Source: Deltaproteobacteria bacterium
GTDB lineage: Bacteria > Desulfobacterota > GWC2-55-46
DNA: 64,000 nucleotides
Direction: 5' to 3'
Assembly: GCA_016182655.1 (NCBI GenBank)
Contig: JACPGB010000008.1
Coordinates: 62,001 to 126,000 of the forward strand
Below the pieces are notes generated by a model that saw only the letters and a program-made list of their open reading frames with translations, searched no databases and was not told the DNA's origin. The position numbers were made by a program, and so were the translations under genes. Every line of letters starts with the position of its first letter. The stretch's first letter is position 1. Below are positions 20,391 through 27,371 of the stretch, one piece after another.

Positions 20391-20645
20391 ATGAAGTACC
20401 TTCTTGAGACTCCGCACACCAAGGAAGAGTGTCTTAGGGAGCTGGACGGCCTGCTCGCAAAGGGGCCGGATGTCCTCGACAAGTTCTATTGGGGGTGCTC
20501 CAAGGGCGACCACACGGGCTATGCCCTCGTGGACGCAAAGAACGAATCCGACGCGAAGAACCTCGTTCCCGAGTTCATACGCGGAAAGGCCAAGATAATC
20601 GAGTTGGCGAAATTCACGCCGGAGCAGATCAAGTCTTTCCATTAG
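20391..20645 (+). CDS. Small conserved-looking protein of unknown function
   Basis: An 84-residue protein with a strong AGAGGAGGTGATC ribosome site. It looks like a small alpha/beta domain of ferredoxin-like topology: a strand (KYLLETPH), a helix (ECLRELDGLLAKG), a strand-turn-strand with WGCSKGDHTGYALVDA, a helix (ESDAKNLVPEFI) and a last strand (AKIIELAKF). No membrane segment. Single cysteine. I do not recognise a named family. It is followed by a strong terminator. Confidence 0.7.
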   Translation: MKYLLETPHTKEECLRELDGLLAKGPDVLDKFYWGCSKGDHTGYALVDAKNESDAKNLVPEFIRGKAKIIELAKFTPEQIKSFH

Positions 20646-20668: not shown

Positions 20669-20704
20669 AAAAAAGGGTTACGGCATCGCCGTAACCCTTT
20701 TTTT
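20669..20704. terminator. Bidirectional intrinsic terminator
   Basis: A long stem (AAAAAAGGGTTACGGC with its complement) around ATC has a T-run on both strands. It serves the small gene on plus and the radical SAM operon on minus. The same AAGGGTTACGG hairpin core recurs at 34461 and within the scars at 42416 and 44107. Confidence 0.9.
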
Positions 20705-20771: not shown

Positions 20772-21149
20772 TCAGAGCTTATTGATTATCGCCGACATGC
20801 CTGAAAGCGCTTCCAATCCGACGGTGTTAACGCCTTCCAGTTTTCCCCTGAAGTCGGACACTATCTCCTTGGAGAACTTGCCCCACTGGGCCTCATTTAC
20901 AAGATATATTTCGCCCTTAAAATGGAGATGGGGTACGGGGATCCCGGGGAACCCCTTCTTGCCTTTTGCGAGCGGAAGCTTTATCTTTGAGTTGTTCGCC
21001 GTAATCGCTATTTGCGTGCGGGCCAGGTTTTCCCTTTTTATGAAATTAGCCACGGACACCGCATGATTCACCCACAACTCCTTCCTTCCGCCGTTTTCCC
21101 AGCCCCGCAACAAGTCGAAACTTTTCCCGAAGCCATTCGTTAAGCCCAT
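20772..21149 (-). CDS. Cysteine-free 125-residue partner of the radical SAM enzyme (candidate precursor)
   Basis: The ATG at 21149 has AGGAGGG upstream and lies 13 bases after the stop of the radical SAM/SPASM gene; the open frame extends further but runs into that gene. The product has no cysteine, signal peptide or membrane segment. It has a basic, Asn/Lys-rich middle (ANNSKIKLPLAKGKKG), a Gly/Pro/His stretch GIPVPHLHF near 70, and tryptophans near 17, 26 and 88. The position directly after a SPASM enzyme suggests a substrate peptide or recognition partner. It is longer than most RiPP precursors and lacks a clear leader/core boundary, so it could also be a folded accessory protein. No named family recognised. 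Confidence 0.7.
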   Translation of the reverse strand: MGLTNGFGKSFDLLRGWENGGRKELWVNHAVSVANFIKRENLARTQIAITANNSKIKLPLAKGKKGFPGIPVPHLHFKGEIYLVNEAQWGKFSKEIVSDFRGKLEGVNTVGLEALSGMSAIINKL

Positions 21150-21162
21150 CGAACCCTCCTTT

Positions 21163-22305
21163 TTATTGGTTTTTAGTACCCGCCTCAGCCCCTTCCATGC
21201 AACTGTTCGCGGCCGGCCTGCCTGAAAAATGCTCCATGAACGTAGCCGCGCCGACCTCCTGATCAAGACGCTCGAAGGCCTTGAATGCGGCTGAAAGAAG
21301 CGCCTTTTCAGACGCGCACTGAAAAGGACTCACGCGGTTGTAAAAACCCGAGGAAAAATAATTCGAGCACCCGCACCAGTTCATGCAATAGGGCCTGACG
21401 GTGCAGGAGAGGCATTCATGGTTCAATTCTCCTTTTGGGACGGTCCTGCAGGACATTAGCCCGGGATCGCAACCGTTGTCCAGGCTACCTATGGCGCCTT
21501 CGCCCGTATCGGGCCCGATAAGCCTTTCGCATGGGTATATCAGCCCTGAAGGGGAGATGGCGAACTCGCCTGTCCCCATGCTGCAACGCTCCTGGGGCTC
21601 GTAGCCGTTCCTCATTATTACCGCTATCTTGTCGTCGAGCGGTGAGATGTGGATGGGCCTGCCCTCGAGATAGCAATTCACATAGAAGTCAGCGACACCT
21701 CCGTAAGCCTCGGAGAGGGCCTGCGCGTCTTTCATGTCCCACCCCGCCGAGTAGTCGGGGTTGAAGTATATGCGCCTCAGTCCGAGACCGGCGAGGTATT
21801 TGACGACCTCGGGAAGCGACCTGAATGTCGCCGGTGTATAAACGGCGTTTACGACCACGGAAGGCAGCTCTTCAATGGCTCTCCTGATATTCCTCTCCAC
21901 GACATGCGAGCTCGGCGAGCCGTCGCTGAAGCGCCTGTTCGCGTCCTGAAGACGGGGAGGGCCGTCGATGCTCAGGCAGAAGTTTATCTCCTCCTCTACG
22001 ATGTACCTTGCTATCTCCCGGTCGAATATTGTGCCGTTGGTCGTGACGGTAAAACTTATCCCCTTGGGGTCGTACTTCGGGTGCTCCTTTATCATCGACA
22101 CGATCTTTTTAAGGAGTCCGAATTCAAGCAGCGGCTCTCCGCCGAAAAACCCTATCGAGGCCTCTTCACCAGGCCTTTTTTTCCCGAAGATGAAATCAAC
22201 CGCCTTGCGGGCGGTCTGGAGCGGCATGGTCTCATGCTTTTTTTTGATGTAGCAATAACCGCACCTGAGATTGCAGTCCTGCGTTATCGAAAGAGTGAAT
22301 TTCAT
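21163..22305 (-). CDS. Radical SAM/SPASM enzyme, peptide-maturase type
   Basis: The 380-residue protein has the radical SAM motif CNLRCGYCY at 11-19 and FFGGEPLLE near 53-61. The C-terminal SPASM part has CSMGTGEFAISPSGLIYPC near 240-258 and then CLSCTVRPYCMNWCGC near 297-312 and a late FQC, enough cysteines for two auxiliary iron-sulfur clusters. This layout is that of anaerobic sulfatase maturases and RiPP maturases that cross-link or epimerise peptides. No sulfatase gene is near; the only co-transcribed gene is the cysteine-free protein downstream, so a thioether product is unlikely from that partner. No PqqD-like recognition domain is visible within the enzyme. The upstream 120 bases are AT-rich and likely hold the promoter. 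Confidence 0.85.
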   Translation of the reverse strand: MKFTLSITQDCNLRCGYCYIKKKHETMPLQTARKAVDFIFGKKRPGEEASIGFFGGEPLLEFGLLKKIVSMIKEHPKYDPKGISFTVTTNGTIFDREIARYIVEEEINFCLSIDGPPRLQDANRRFSDGSPSSHVVERNIRRAIEELPSVVVNAVYTPATFRSLPEVVKYLAGLGLRRIYFNPDYSAGWDMKDAQALSEAYGGVADFYVNCYLEGRPIHISPLDDKIAVIMRNGYEPQERCSMGTGEFAISPSGLIYPCERLIGPDTGEGAIGSLDNGCDPGLMSCRTVPKGELNHECLSCTVRPYCMNWCGCSNYFSSGFYNRVSPFQCASEKALLSAAFKAFERLDQEVGAATFMEHFSGRPAANSCMEGAEAGTKNQ

Positions 22306-22524
22306 TTATTTACTCTATACCCTAATGGTTTTAATCCTTATATTCAAAAACAATAATTATGTCAATATATATTTACCATGCAAACCCTTTCATTTCGCAA
22401 TATTCAGCATTCATTAAAAAATAGCGGTGGCAATGCAACCCTGCGATTATTTACGCAAGGTTGTCCCGCGCCTTCCGTTATTGGATTTTTTCCGGAGGGA
22501 TGAGCTGGAGAAGGTATGGCTGAC

Positions 22525-22992
22525 TCAATCTATCGCGGCCCTGCCGCTCGTGGCGTTTACCGCGACCCTGTATTTGAGGGCGTTCTCGACATCCTTTACG
22601 CAGATGACCGCGGAGTCCGTAGACCCGTTCGTCTTGAACCTGACGGTGAGGTCAGCGGTCCCGTCGCAGGCCGACCCGCTCGACCACTTGACCTCGGTCG
22701 CGAGCTCTGTCCACGGATCGCCGGTCCATACCGTTGAACCGGAGGAACGGTTGCCGGTTGCGAGCCTGAACCTCCTGGCGTCGATATCGAACTCGACCCT
22801 GTGCTCGAGGTTTGTGGAAAGTGAAGAGTCCCTCGCGAGCCGGAAGGCCGCGACTACCCCCCAGGCGGCTTCCTTGTACAACGCGGACTGACGCCATGTA
22901 TAGAACCTGGGGATGGCTATCGCGGAGACAGACGCGACTATCGCGAGCACGACGAGCGTCTCTAAAAGCGTATAACCCTTTTCACTTCTCAT
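22525..22992 (-). CDS. Minor pseudopilin, GspH/FimT-like
   Basis: The ATG at 22992 (MRSEKGYTLLETL) overlaps the end of the lipoprotein gene and gives 155 residues. A short charged leader is followed by G and the class III prepilin segment YTLLETLVVLAIVASVSAIAIP, with glutamate at mature position 5. The hydrophobic helix continues to about 30, then a globular part with a cysteine pair (SACDG and VICVKD) follows, as in FimT/GspH proteins. It is the last gene of the pilin operon. Minor pilins prime pilus assembly and, in FimT, can bind DNA. Confidence 0.85.
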   Translation of the reverse strand: MRSEKGYTLLETLVVLAIVASVSAIAIPRFYTWRQSALYKEAAWGVVAAFRLARDSSLSTNLEHRVEFDIDARRFRLATGNRSSGSTVWTGDPWTELATEVKWSSGSACDGTADLTVRFKTNGSTDSAVICVKDVENALKYRVAVNATSGRAAID

Positions 22993-23839
22993 CGTCCACC
23001 TTGAGCTCAAAGCGCTGGAAGGCCTCCCCGCCGTTGCCGTCGTCGGCCGAGAGCACGACCCCGAACGCGCCTTTCCGCCCCTTTGTATCCCATTCAAGCC
23101 TCCCCCCTTCCATCTTCATCCCCTCAGGGCCTTTTACGACGGAAAACTTCACCTCGTCCCCGTCATGGTCGGAGGCTTTGGGTGTGTAGATGAACAAGCC
23201 TGAAAAATCATCGGGCGGGACCGAGACGAACCTGGGTTGGGCGTTCATTGCGGCCCCGGCGTCCGTACGGAACTCACTTGACCCTTCACGGTCTGAAGAT
23301 ACTACCAGCACCGAGACGGCGTCACCCCTCTTGAAGTATCTTCCGTCAAGGGCCGCTCCGCTCTCTTCGTATACCCTCTCGTTGTTGACGTACCACTCAT
23401 ATTCGTACTCAATGGCATCATTGTCCGGGTCGCGCCCATCCGCCACGGCCTTTACACCCGTGGACTTGTTGAAGGGCTTCGGGCTCATGTCGATGGACCT
23501 GATCACCGGCGGAGAGTTGAGTAGTATCGATTCGGCCGAGGCCTCCCTTCCTCCAGAGGTCACGACGACGCCGACCCTCTCTCCCTTCCTGAAGCCGGAG
23601 GTGTCGAGTACGTCGGCGGCGTTCTCCATCGCCTCTCCGTTCCGCTCCCAGCGGAAAGACGCTTCATTCCCTCCGGTTACGACGGCCCTGACGGCATCCC
23701 CGGCCCTCGGGGCCTCAGGGATGAGACTTACCGAGAACGCTCCGGTCTTCCCACGCTCCGTTGCGGAAGGGACCGGGGCGCGTCCGCACGCCTGCATCAA
23801 AAACGCCAGAAAGAGAATTGCTATGAATGATCTTTTCAT
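22982..23839 (-). CDS. Lipoprotein with Ig/cadherin-like repeats in the pilin operon
   Basis: The ATG at 23839 starts a lipoprotein signal with the lipobox FLMQAC; a GTG at 23851 overlapping the previous stop is an alternative. After the lipid-attached cysteine come three beta-sandwich-like parts: VSLIPEAPRAGDAVRAVVTG, then NSPPVIRSIDMSPKPFNKST with DGRDPDNDAIEYEYEWYVN (calcium-loop-like acidic motif) and a last VSVPPDDFSGLFIYTPKASD repeat ending in a cadherin-like strand. These are typical of surface or periplasmic binding proteins. Its place between the PilY1 gene and the fimT-like gene suggests that it helps assemble or anchor the pilus tip; this is inference. No named family. Confidence 0.75.
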   Translation of the reverse strand: MKRSFIAILFLAFLMQACGRAPVPSATERGKTGAFSVSLIPEAPRAGDAVRAVVTGGNEASFRWERNGEAMENAADVLDTSGFRKGERVGVVVTSGGREASAESILLNSPPVIRSIDMSPKPFNKSTGVKAVADGRDPDNDAIEYEYEWYVNNERVYEESGAALDGRYFKRGDAVSVLVVSSDREGSSEFRTDAGAAMNAQPRFVSVPPDDFSGLFIYTPKASDHDGDEVKFSVVKGPEGMKMEGGRLEWDTKGRKGAFGVVLSADDGNGGEAFQRFELKVDDEK

Positions 23840-23847
23840 ATTTTTTC

Positions 23848-24195
23848 TCACGGTATCTGCATGTACTCGTATCTGTATCTTTCCTTGCCGCTTATGTACT
23901 TCGGGAGAAAGTATATTTTCTCGGCGTCTATCGACCCATCCTCACCCGGCGTGCCCTCGACATAGAGCCATTTGTACTCCGAGAGCCTGTACATGCTTGA
24001 GTCGTTGCCGCTCGAATCGAAGAACCTCGTCTCTGCCTTTATGTTGATCGTCTGTCTCTCGTTGAGGACTAACGAGGATGTCCCGTACGAGCTTATTATG
24101 CCCTGGATGAACCTCTCCTCTCCTTCCTCCCCCGCAAACACGGCGGACGCGGAAGCGATCATCGCGACCATCATCATCGCAAGAAGCCTTTCCAT
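23848..24195 (-). CDS. Small secreted protein (DUF5666-like barrel) in the pilin operon
   Basis: A 115-residue protein with a clear signal peptide (LLAMMMVAMIASASAVFA) and a small beta-rich domain: FIQGIISSYGTSSLVLNERQTINI, then TRFFDSSG and WLYVEGTPGEDGSIDAEKIYFLP. This pattern resembles the DUF5666/OB-like domains that follow a metal or ligand-independent fold. The start has GGAGG and overlaps the pilY1 stop (TGATG). Its role in pilus biogenesis is inferred from position only. Confidence 0.7.
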   Translation of the reverse strand: MERLLAMMMVAMIASASAVFAGEEGEERFIQGIISSYGTSSLVLNERQTINIKAETRFFDSSGNDSSMYRLSEYKWLYVEGTPGEDGSIDAEKIYFLPKYISGKERYRYEYMQIP

Positions 24196-27100
24196 CAGCG
24201 CACCTCCCTCCAGTAAGTGGGAATGGATGAGCCGCCCTGCCGGACATCCGGGTTAACGATAGAGCCTCCGGAGCCGATGAGGGCTGTAAACCCGTTGGGG
24301 CCGACTACGGTGACCACACCCGAGGCAATGCCCGAGCCTATCTCCTTTGACCTGTCGGTTGCGTCCTTTACGGCCCCGGACTGCGTGTCGTTCGATGTAT
24401 TGTAGTTGTAGGCCGCCCCGGCCGTGAGGTACTCGAGCGAGTACAGCCTCGAAGTGCCTGCCCCGGCCGAGCAGATGTTCACGACACTCGAGGGCTCGTA
24501 TGTCGTGTAATACGCGGCCTTTCCGAAGACCGCGGCCTGCGCAAGCGACTTCTCCCCGGCGTTCGTCGAGAGCTTTATGTACCACCCGTAGTAGGGCGAG
24601 ATGTTTACGGACGACGCGTTTGTTGCGTCGATCAAGTCGGTCTCGGTCTTTGTCGAGGCCTGGCCGGTATCTTTCACCGCGTACAATCTGTCGACCGTGC
24701 CGGTCGATACCGGGTGTTCCCTGTCTCCGGTCCCGAGGAATAGCAACTCGTATCCGGTCTCGAGCGTCACGGCGGGCTTGTAAAACATCTTCCTCCCCGA
24801 GGATGCGTCGGCGCCCGGGTTGGACTGGAAGATCTTCTTGCCGCTCCAGGATGAAGTGAGACTGCCGCCGACGTCGAACCTCCACACGCCTGCTCCCGCG
24901 TCCCCGGCGTAGAGCCTGTCCACGTAGCCGTTGCCGTTCGCGTCGAGCGCGGAAAGCTGCGACGGTATGGACCTCGTAAGCGCGGAGTTCTCCGCGGCCG
25001 TGTACCCCCAGACCTTCCTGCCGCTCGATGAGAACGAGGGGACACCGTTTACAAGGGTCGCTATCTCTATCGCGTATACGCCCCTGCCCCTGGTGGACGA
25101 GGGCGCGGGCTCCTGGTCCTCGGACGAGTTGTCGTAGCCCGCGCCGACGAATGCCACTACCTTCGTGACATCCGTGCCGCCTGACTCTATCGCAACCTTC
25201 GTCATGACCGGCTCCGACCATGTCTCGGCCAGCTCCGAATAATCGGTGTTTACGCCCGAGGGCGATTCCGTCGAGCCGAGCCTCCACAGATAGACCGGCG
25301 CTGACGGGTCCGAGACGTCGAGCGCGTAATAAAAGCCCCCGCCCCTCCTCTCGCCGAATACGATCACTACCTTGTCGCCGTTCGCGGTCTCTATATAGCC
25401 GTTGGAGTTGGCGTCATAGGCATAGACCGACGGCGATGAGTCGGCGAAGTATGTATGCGTGGCGCCGTAGAGGTGCTTGAGGTTCGGCAATTGGTCCTGC
25501 GGTATGAACGCCCATGCCTCTGACCCGTCGCAGTCCTTGAAGGCGTGGAGCATGCCGTCGTTGCCGCCGAGAAAGATCATCGACCTGTTCAAAGAGCAGT
25601 CGTTCTCCTCCGCTGAAGAATAAGTCGAGTACGCGACGACCGTCGGCTTCGAGTGCAGTATGTCGCCAAGTATCCAGTCCCTCTTCTCATCCGTTATGCC
25701 GTTGCCGTCCTCGTCATAAGCATCATACCCGTGGACGTAATTTACAAGGCGCGTCTTCTCGGTATCGTCGGCGACCGCGAGCGCGGAGGCCGTCACAAGG
25801 GCGTTGGATGAAGTAAAGGCGTTTGCCGATACGGTAAGGCCGGCGTTCGTCCCCATGTAGGTGTAGATGTTCCTTGAGAGCGACCTCGTAAGGAGGAGCG
25901 CTCCAGCGCCTCCCCTTTCGACCTCGCCCGCGTCGGCGACCGTGTTCCAGTATGAAACGGCGTTCTCCCTTATCGAGCCGTCGGAGTTGGTCGCCGGGTC
26001 TCCGTACCTGTCCACGATGTTGCCGTCGGAGTCGAGCCCGAATTTCTTGAGGTTCCCGGACCAGAAGGCCTTGTTCTTGGGCATGAAGAACCCCATGTAG
26101 AGCCGGTCGCCGGTGTAGGTGCGGTTCTCGGGGCTGACCGGGAGGACCGGGGCGACGAAAGAGGTGTTCTCCTCGACGATGGAGGCGAGTATCTGGCGTA
26201 GAGACTCGCTTAAGCCCGCGGTCGACGAGGCCGAGTAGTAGACGCCGCCGCCGTTGTACGCCGTCTCCTGAAGGAGGTCCTCGGCGTAGGCCACGCCCGA
26301 GAGCCCGAAGCCAACGGTGTACGTGAGGACCGTCTGCCTGCCGAGGGTCTTTTCATCGGAAGTATCGGGCAGGAGGTCGTTGTCAAAAAGATATTTCGCG
26401 ACGTCGTCGAGGTAGTCCGAGCCCTGGTAATTGTAGACCTTGTTCGGGTCGTTCGCCGGTTCGAACCCGTCGCCGTCGCAGTCTCCCTGGTTGCAGATGG
26501 TCTTCAATACCGGCGACCTGTCCTCTGTCGACATGCCGTCGGTGATCAAGATGACATAGTTCTTCTGGCAACTGTACTCGACCGGGGTGGTGTAGGTAAT
26601 GTTTCCGTTAAAGCTCGTGCCCTGTCCCTTGTAGTAGTTCATCGCCTCGAAGAGCGTCTCTGCCAGAGGCGTCCAGGTCGAGGGGTCTATGCCGTTTACG
26701 GTGTTCACGAGAGCCGTCCTGTTCGTGGTAGTGCCGGAGAAGACGGCGTCCATGTCCTTCACATAGGCGTTATAACCGTTGTAGCCGTACTGGTCGCCGA
26801 CCCCGGCTATGTGGCCGCCGTTCGACTGGTTGAATATCATGAGGCCGAACTTCACGCCCGAGGTCGTGTTGAGGAGGTTCGTAAGGACCTCCTTGGCTAT
26901 CTCCATCTTTGAGCGGTAGCCCCCGCCGATGGTGAGCCAGTTGATGTAGTTGCCGAGGGAGTAACTGCCGGAGTTGTTGGTGCACGCGCCCGAGGTCTTG
27001 AGCTTGCCCTGGTAGGTGCCGGTAGTAAGGAGCGCGTTCTTTGCAGACGGGCAGGTGATCGAGTTGACGTCGTTTATGTACTGGACCCATTTGCCCTCTA

Positions 27101-27371
27101 TCGCCCTCCATCTGTAGACCTTGTCGGTCTCGCAAGGCTGTCCCTGACAGCCGTTCGTGGCGGCGTAGACCGTCGAGGGATTGTAGGGGTCGCCCGAGAC
27201 GATCGTCTCGCTCATAGACCCGGAGTTGTCGAGTATTATGAGGACGTTCGGTTGTAGCGTATCCGTCGAGACGCCGTAGATGACGGCGTCCCCGGGGTAC
27301 TGGTCGAGGGCGCCGGCGAACGGCGCGAACAACAACAGGGCAACAATGGCAAGAAGGACGGGTCTCATCAT
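24195..27371 (-). CDS. pilY1: PilY1-like type IV pilus tip protein
   Basis: The 1058-residue protein has a signal peptide and a von Willebrand A-like domain with the MIDAS motif DNSGSMSE near 48-55. The C-terminal half is a PilC-type beta-propeller with calcium-loop motifs such as DANSNGYIE near 650 and DANGNGYVDRLYAGDAGAGVWRFD near 835, the PilY1 hallmark. Cysteine pairs (CQGQPCE, CNQGDCDGDG) suggest disulfides. PilY1 proteins sit at the pilus tip, bind calcium, and act in adhesion and surface sensing. It overlaps the previous gene stop (start 27371, or ATG at 27368). It is embedded in a minor pilin operon as in Pseudomonas and Geobacter. Confidence 0.92.
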   Translation of the reverse strand: MMRPVLLAIVALLLFAPFAGALDQYPGDAVIYGVSTDTLQPNVLIILDNSGSMSETIVSGDPYNPSTVYAATNGCQGQPCETDKVYRWRAIEGKWVQYINDVNSITCPSAKNALLTTGTYQGKLKTSGACTNNSGSYSLGNYINWLTIGGGYRSKMEIAKEVLTNLLNTTSGVKFGLMIFNQSNGGHIAGVGDQYGYNGYNAYVKDMDAVFSGTTTNRTALVNTVNGIDPSTWTPLAETLFEAMNYYKGQGTSFNGNITYTTPVEYSCQKNYVILITDGMSTEDRSPVLKTICNQGDCDGDGFEPANDPNKVYNYQGSDYLDDVAKYLFDNDLLPDTSDEKTLGRQTVLTYTVGFGLSGVAYAEDLLQETAYNGGGVYYSASSTAGLSESLRQILASIVEENTSFVAPVLPVSPENRTYTGDRLYMGFFMPKNKAFWSGNLKKFGLDSDGNIVDRYGDPATNSDGSIRENAVSYWNTVADAGEVERGGAGALLLTRSLSRNIYTYMGTNAGLTVSANAFTSSNALVTASALAVADDTEKTRLVNYVHGYDAYDEDGNGITDEKRDWILGDILHSKPTVVAYSTYSSAEENDCSLNRSMIFLGGNDGMLHAFKDCDGSEAWAFIPQDQLPNLKHLYGATHTYFADSSPSVYAYDANSNGYIETANGDKVVIVFGERRGGGFYYALDVSDPSAPVYLWRLGSTESPSGVNTDYSELAETWSEPVMTKVAIESGGTDVTKVVAFVGAGYDNSSEDQEPAPSSTRGRGVYAIEIATLVNGVPSFSSSGRKVWGYTAAENSALTRSIPSQLSALDANGNGYVDRLYAGDAGAGVWRFDVGGSLTSSWSGKKIFQSNPGADASSGRKMFYKPAVTLETGYELLFLGTGDREHPVSTGTVDRLYAVKDTGQASTKTETDLIDATNASSVNISPYYGWYIKLSTNAGEKSLAQAAVFGKAAYYTTYEPSSVVNICSAGAGTSRLYSLEYLTAGAAYNYNTSNDTQSGAVKDATDRSKEIGSGIASGVVTVVGPNGFTALIGSGGSIVNPDVRQGGSSIPTYWREVR

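Follow-up and report, generated by a model that had tools for sequence, protein, structure and literature searches.

A conserved two-gene unit of a radical SAM/SPASM enzyme and a cysteine-free small protein, its probable substrate

The nearest characterised relatives of the enzyme described here, PapB, QhpD and the SCIFF maturases, form thioethers from cysteine. PapB (NF047865; freyrasin) links Cys to Asp or Glu, in the CX3D pattern, within PapA (PMC9413430), and QhpD, which makes Cys-Asp/Glu thioethers, provides the precedent for a working protein as the substrate of such an enzyme (PMC11002830). Histidine is also a recorded target of radical SAM enzymes: the triceptide enzymes HaaB and YhhB form C2(His)-Cbeta links, and in bicyclostreptin (HghA-D) a His-Gly-His precursor is cross-linked (PMC11002830). 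The bicyclostreptin system comprises two radical SAM enzymes together with an RRE protein, and precursors of the triceptide type are typically much shorter than the protein considered below. Proteins can also be matured without a leader or RRE system, as they are by the anaerobic sulfatase maturase (anSME), a SPASM enzyme that acts on Cys or Ser of sulfatases. The gene pair analysed here was found in a window of 64,000 nt (the whole stretch of DNA that was analysed) from a Deltaproteobacteria bacterium, and is apparently undescribed in the open-licence literature, judged mostly from titles and abstracts.

Both genes lie on the minus strand and are separated by 13 nt: first a radical SAM/SPASM enzyme of 380 residues (P0002; 21163..22305), and second a partner of 125 residues (P0001; 20772..21149, ATG at 21149), its probable substrate. 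An earlier note on this DNA had described a tight two-gene unit, comprising an enzyme with all SPASM cluster cysteines and a partner without cysteine, signal peptide or known family, and each of these points is borne out by what follows. It had further credited the unit with its own terminator. An intrinsic terminator is indeed present at 20669..20703, with a perfect 16-bp stem and A/T tails (-29 kcal/mol, z -4.3), but it is bidirectional, lies between the partner stop and a convergent ORF of 84 residues (20391-20645) and serves both sides, so that 'own' was slightly too strong. The convergent ORF itself has a good ribosome-binding site and a DUF3764 match that is sub-threshold only. A sequence scan found no convincing promoter upstream of the enzyme gene; the probable promoter is an AT-rich region immediately 5' of it (22306..22420, minus strand), in which there are weak sigma-70-like matches only. 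The pair looks like a separate transcription unit because the nearest upstream ORF on the same strand, belonging to a pilus-like cluster, ends about 220 nt before the enzyme start, with an AT-rich stretch between. There is no Rfam match near the pair, whose neighbours are the pilus-like cluster and an SDR. The cluster is of type IV pilus-like character (22525-27371) and includes two small exported-looking proteins; among its ORFs are one that is prepilin-like (22525-23097) and one of 1058 residues that is PilY1/PilC-like, with a weak PilC match (24195-27371). A Shine-Dalgarno sequence, GGAGGG (AAAAAGGAGGG; 21154..21159, minus strand), is located inside the 13-nt gap, four bases 5' of the partner ATG. 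Ribosome-binding sites are strong before the partner genes of the window and of most relatives but weak before the window enzyme gene, which is the pattern expected for a substrate made in excess.

The radical SAM domain of the enzyme is recognised by Pfam (PF04055, 1.1e-16). Its CxxxCxxC motif for the SAM-binding [4Fe-4S] cluster (C11, C15 and C18; 22252..22275, minus strand) is invariant in 13 aligned enzymes, as are the SPASM cysteines C241, C259, C298, C301, C307, C311 and C330 (21316..21585, minus strand) and a further one, C313, in WCGC[ST]N; both auxiliary-cluster sets are present, in the order C-x17-C ... CxxCx5Cx3C ... C. Some ten residues precede the first cluster cysteine; an N-terminal RRE is therefore absent, and neither enzyme nor partner has a Pfam or NCBIfam match to an RRE/PqqD domain. 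PapB is the top NCBIfam model for the window enzyme (206.8 bits) and for seven orthologues (G600, G643, G790, G507, G468, G422 and G640), and the SPASM cysteines are a further likeness; however, at 168-215 bits the scores miss the curated cut-off of 340, and the partner here is free of cysteine and 119-160 residues long. The next models, for nif11, CcpM, CXXX-repeat and QhpD maturases, are all far under their cut-offs. QhpD (TIGR03906) belongs to the same enzyme branch and gives 139.5 bits for the window enzyme, below its cut-off of 453, and amine dehydrogenase genes are absent beside the window pair. Likewise, anSME (TIGR03942) gives 70.9 bits against a cut-off of 349, and no sulfatase is found at the pair. 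None of the cyclophane models (GrrM/OscB, YhhB, AmcB) was passed: the best was GrrM/OscB with 62.7 bits (cut-off 310), and YhhB (NF041707) reached only 58.7 bits (cut-off 445). For the pair, PADLOC reported nothing beyond a general likeness of the radical SAM core to viperins.

The partner-linked enzymes (15 tested) form one clade against other SPASM proteins, with support of 100/98, and the orthologues share 37-50% identity across two phyla. One enzyme of the second phylum, from G643, clusters with those of G000 and G468 (support 92/95), a grouping that suggests either exchange of the gene between phyla or an ancient shared origin. Among the sequences sampled, the closest outgroup enzymes come from Paraclostridium plasmids, where genes for a peptidase and for an ABC transporter lie alongside; one of these two loci (L039) additionally encodes a Cys-rich peptide of 52 residues. 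A large, cysteine-free partner is thus a property of the enzyme clade described here. Both Paraclostridium sordellii loci (L039 and L040) contain three adjacent radical-SAM genes, an S8 peptidase and the ABC transporter in a RiPP-like cluster, and L039 also carries agr-like genes. An enzyme match on a Novosphingobium plasmid (H4), by eye a QhpD-like protein of 488 residues with cytochrome-like and propeller-like ORFs adjacent, was set aside.

The window partner has no relative in Pfam, NCBIfam, PADLOC or PDB. Eighteen partners, each searched against Pfam, NCBIfam and PHROGs, gave nothing significant, including to the leader families Nif11 and NHLP, and a profile of their alignment had no match in PDB. 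Judged by these searches, neither the enzyme nor the partner gene belongs to a named family. Searched directly, nearby genomes yielded a single clear partner homologue (G012, E 1.1e-14); a two-sequence profile led to G422, a three-sequence profile to G468, and a four-sequence profile run on 395 genomes of the phylum of Dyadobacter recovered 19 more, down to E 4e-25 and one copy each; many of these 19 genomes are closely related. Profile searches covered the host phylum and that of Dyadobacter; for the all-genomes collection the query was the window partner by itself, a scan that reports on close relatives only. No relatives were found in phage, plasmid or viral collections. As it stands, the family comprises members from four host-phylum genomes and 19 of the 395 in the second phylum, and as homologues that match it in core and approximate length occur in two phyla, the partner is a genuine gene and no chance ORF.

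Alignment of the homologues delimits that core to the C-terminal residues 67-125 (20775..20951, minus strand). Within it, a G-x4-H-x-H block (G69, H74 and H76; 20922..20945, minus strand) is invariant in 18/18 and 15/15 sequences, and a Tyr82...Gln88-Trp89..Phe92 block (20874..20906, minus strand) is nearly so (Y 13/15, Q 14/15, W 14/15, F 13/15), with Q88 and W89 kept in 17 of the 18 partners. P73 and an N-terminal motif of the form G-I-P-A-D-F-W are common among partners. A single-sequence AlphaFold2 model of the partner has a pLDDT of 32. Convincing transmembrane or signal segments are absent throughout the family, and the window partner lacks a hydrophobic N-terminus. Every intact partner is free of cysteine: 15 of them contain none in 2029 residues against about 33 expected from the surrounding genes, the partners being related and their absences therefore not independent. 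An intramolecular thioether on the partner, which the earlier note had already ruled out for the window protein, is thereby excluded for the family, and no precursor of the CX3D type, with Cys and Asp/Glu, accompanies the enzyme. In one genome (G696; L093, 7943-8344) the partner is frameshifted inside the motif, reading GGLKTPTCTTKV in place of GGLKxPHLHYKG beside an intact enzyme, as a result of either a sequencing error or a recent loss. Two resemblances of the partner were rejected. Firstly, EF-Tu is the usual sub-threshold match of the partner in many genomes, the similarity lying between the segment GIPVPHLHFKGEIYLV (20897-20945, minus strand) and the beginning of EF-Tu domain 3 (PHLHFKGEVYVL in Dyadobacter); at 13-16 bits over some 26-28 residues, and with no Pfam EF-Tu domain match, the likeness is taken as chance. 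Secondly, G-x4-H-x-H-x3-[DE] resembles cupin motif 1, but no cupin model matches.

An orthologous enzyme adjoins the partner in 22 of 23 genomes, and in the 23rd (G012) a fragment of another SPASM protein does so; no partner was found without a radical-SAM/SPASM gene. Neither of the two outcomes that would have contradicted the earlier note, membership of the partner in a known enzyme family or its presence in most genomes without the radical SAM gene, was observed, and the interpretation given there is supported. The converse search gave no case of an enzyme without a partner in the roughly 500 genomes where both were sought, and in a draw of 395 host-phylum genomes the two genes occurred in exactly the same two. 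Two classes were searched completely (63 and 46 genomes): enzyme orthologues returned E-values of about 1e-208 to 1e-214 against 6e-45 for the next SPASM protein, so that the orthologue group is sharply bounded, and the partner is adjacent in all three genomes with an orthologue (G000, G422 and G468). In the second phylum, where the test ran from partner to enzyme only, the adjacency holds in 19/19; the enzymes of G845 and G778 extend past contig ends. The enzyme comes first in G000, G422, G468, G643 and G507 and the partner first in the remaining genomes, and adjacency has been kept despite this change in gene order. Identity matrices of partner and enzyme are correlated (r = 0.83, permutation p 1e-4), a value in which species relatedness is still included. 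Comparison of all ORFs around 22 loci identified no third recurrent gene; the other neighbour clusters, none of them common to more than four loci, have the look of synteny among closely related genomes, and no peptidase, transporter or RRE gene recurs among the roughly 22 loci. Several of the second-phylum neighbours may fit green sulfur bacteria.

Two loci depart from the common arrangement. The G012 partner lies 23 nt after its SPASM-protein fragment, which is truncated by the contig end and belongs to a non-orthologous protein. It is followed in this locus (L031; G012:C144, 3743-6741) by a secreted Cys-rich protein of 103 residues, a DUF2589 protein (PF11655, 3.4e-28) and two more proteins; for the two larger ones, similar genes of DUF2589 type occur in pairs on plasmids of Vibrio and deltaproteobacteria. 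A link to DUF2589 was rejected, as DUF2589 and related genes adjoin the partner in G012 only; a search of G000 gave no DUF2589 match, a weak result given that the controls were silent too, and a PHxH protein is absent from the DUF2589 plasmid loci examined. The most divergent pair, that of G507 (L094, 6899-10987), has exchanged Tyr for Val and Trp for Phe and kept G-x4-H-x-H. A second radical-SAM gene directly adjoins the first in G507, which is also the only genome with a geranylgeranyl-reductase-family flavoprotein nearby, weakly similar to QhpG.

We consider it fairly probable that the pair works as a post-translational modification system of two genes, with a maturase of the PapB/QhpD branch acting on its small, cysteine-free neighbour. 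The enzyme would be dedicated to this single protein, probably its substrate, and would bind it directly, most plausibly through the conserved C-terminal domain, since an RRE is found neither as a domain of the enzyme nor as a gene of its own. It would cleave SAM to yield a 5'-deoxyadenosyl radical, which may then take a hydrogen from a residue in or near the G-x4-H-x-H, Tyr and Gln-Trp block. As the partner has no cysteine, and can form no Cys thioether within itself, the expected product would be a C-C, C-O or C-N cross-link, an oxidation or an epimerisation. A cross-link would be placed most simply within His-x-His, where His74-x-His76 would allow one from the aromatic ring (i) to C-beta (i+2), and for which the His motifs targeted by HaaB, YhhB and bicyclostreptin are a chemical precedent. 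Because exporter, protease and signal peptide are all lacking, the modified partner most likely remains in the cytoplasm as a working protein; it is in modifying a working protein and not a released peptide that QhpD resembles the role proposed here. More tentatively, and with considerable doubt on our part, the enzyme might install a protein-derived cofactor or metal site, namely a cross-linked or oxidised His-x-His/Tyr/Trp, making the partner a cytoplasmic catalyst, sensor or electron carrier. This would imply, with the same doubt, an enzyme of the PapB/QhpD branch that has abandoned Cys chemistry and, lacking an RRE, takes a folded protein as its substrate.

Several observations weigh against this main reading. 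The closest characterised relatives of the enzyme make thioethers, and Cys-independent chemistry would depart from the branch; in G012 the partner stands beside a non-orthologous SPASM fragment, and in G507 the Tyr and Trp are missing and there are two radical-SAM genes. Co-occurrence would also be expected if the partner served as a regulator or chaperone. One form of such a role would make it a recognition or chaperone subunit, standing in for an RRE and bringing an unlinked peptide or protein to an enzyme that, unlike the bicyclostreptin system, has no RRE at its locus; a single-copy protein in one-to-one association with the enzyme is what would be expected of an accessory subunit. We regard this as unlikely. 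With no third recurrent gene, a substrate other than the partner would need to be encoded elsewhere in each of the genomes, the best-conserved set (His-x-His, Tyr and Gln-Trp) is more like a site than the core of a generic fold, and the strong ribosome-binding sites of the partner genes fit a substrate.

A conventional RiPP pathway would retain the partner as the modified product, but as a long precursor: its C-terminal part would be cyclised, perhaps into a His-based three-residue cyclophane, and then cut out and exported by unlinked housekeeping proteases and transporters. The His-based cross-links of HaaB, YhhB and bicyclostreptin (PMC11002830) lend this some chemical plausibility, as does the Gly-Gly that precedes the motif in most partners; in the window partner, however, it is Pro-Gly. 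At 119-160 residues the partners are long for such precursors, some 50 more residues, conserved in part, come after the motif, which is not how a short variable core would look, and no protease or exporter recurs in about 22 loci, all of which makes such a pathway improbable. Finally, some radical SAM proteins act on targets other than peptides, yet an enzyme acting on a small molecule or RNA, with a structural or regulatory partner merely sharing its operon, is very improbable when the best family models are nearly all peptide or protein maturases and the adjacency of the two genes outlasts gene-order change and spans two phyla.

The modification of a ribosomal product by a radical SAM/SPASM enzyme is already known, and on the best reading the new part is the partner, a cysteine-free protein without a family name. 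Where the nearest characterised enzymes build thioethers from cysteine, a conserved clade found in at least two phyla, whose sole partner never contains cysteine and which lacks any RRE, protease or exporter, suggests that both the reaction and the way the substrate is recognised differ, and the invariant His-x-His would offer a specific candidate target within the partner.
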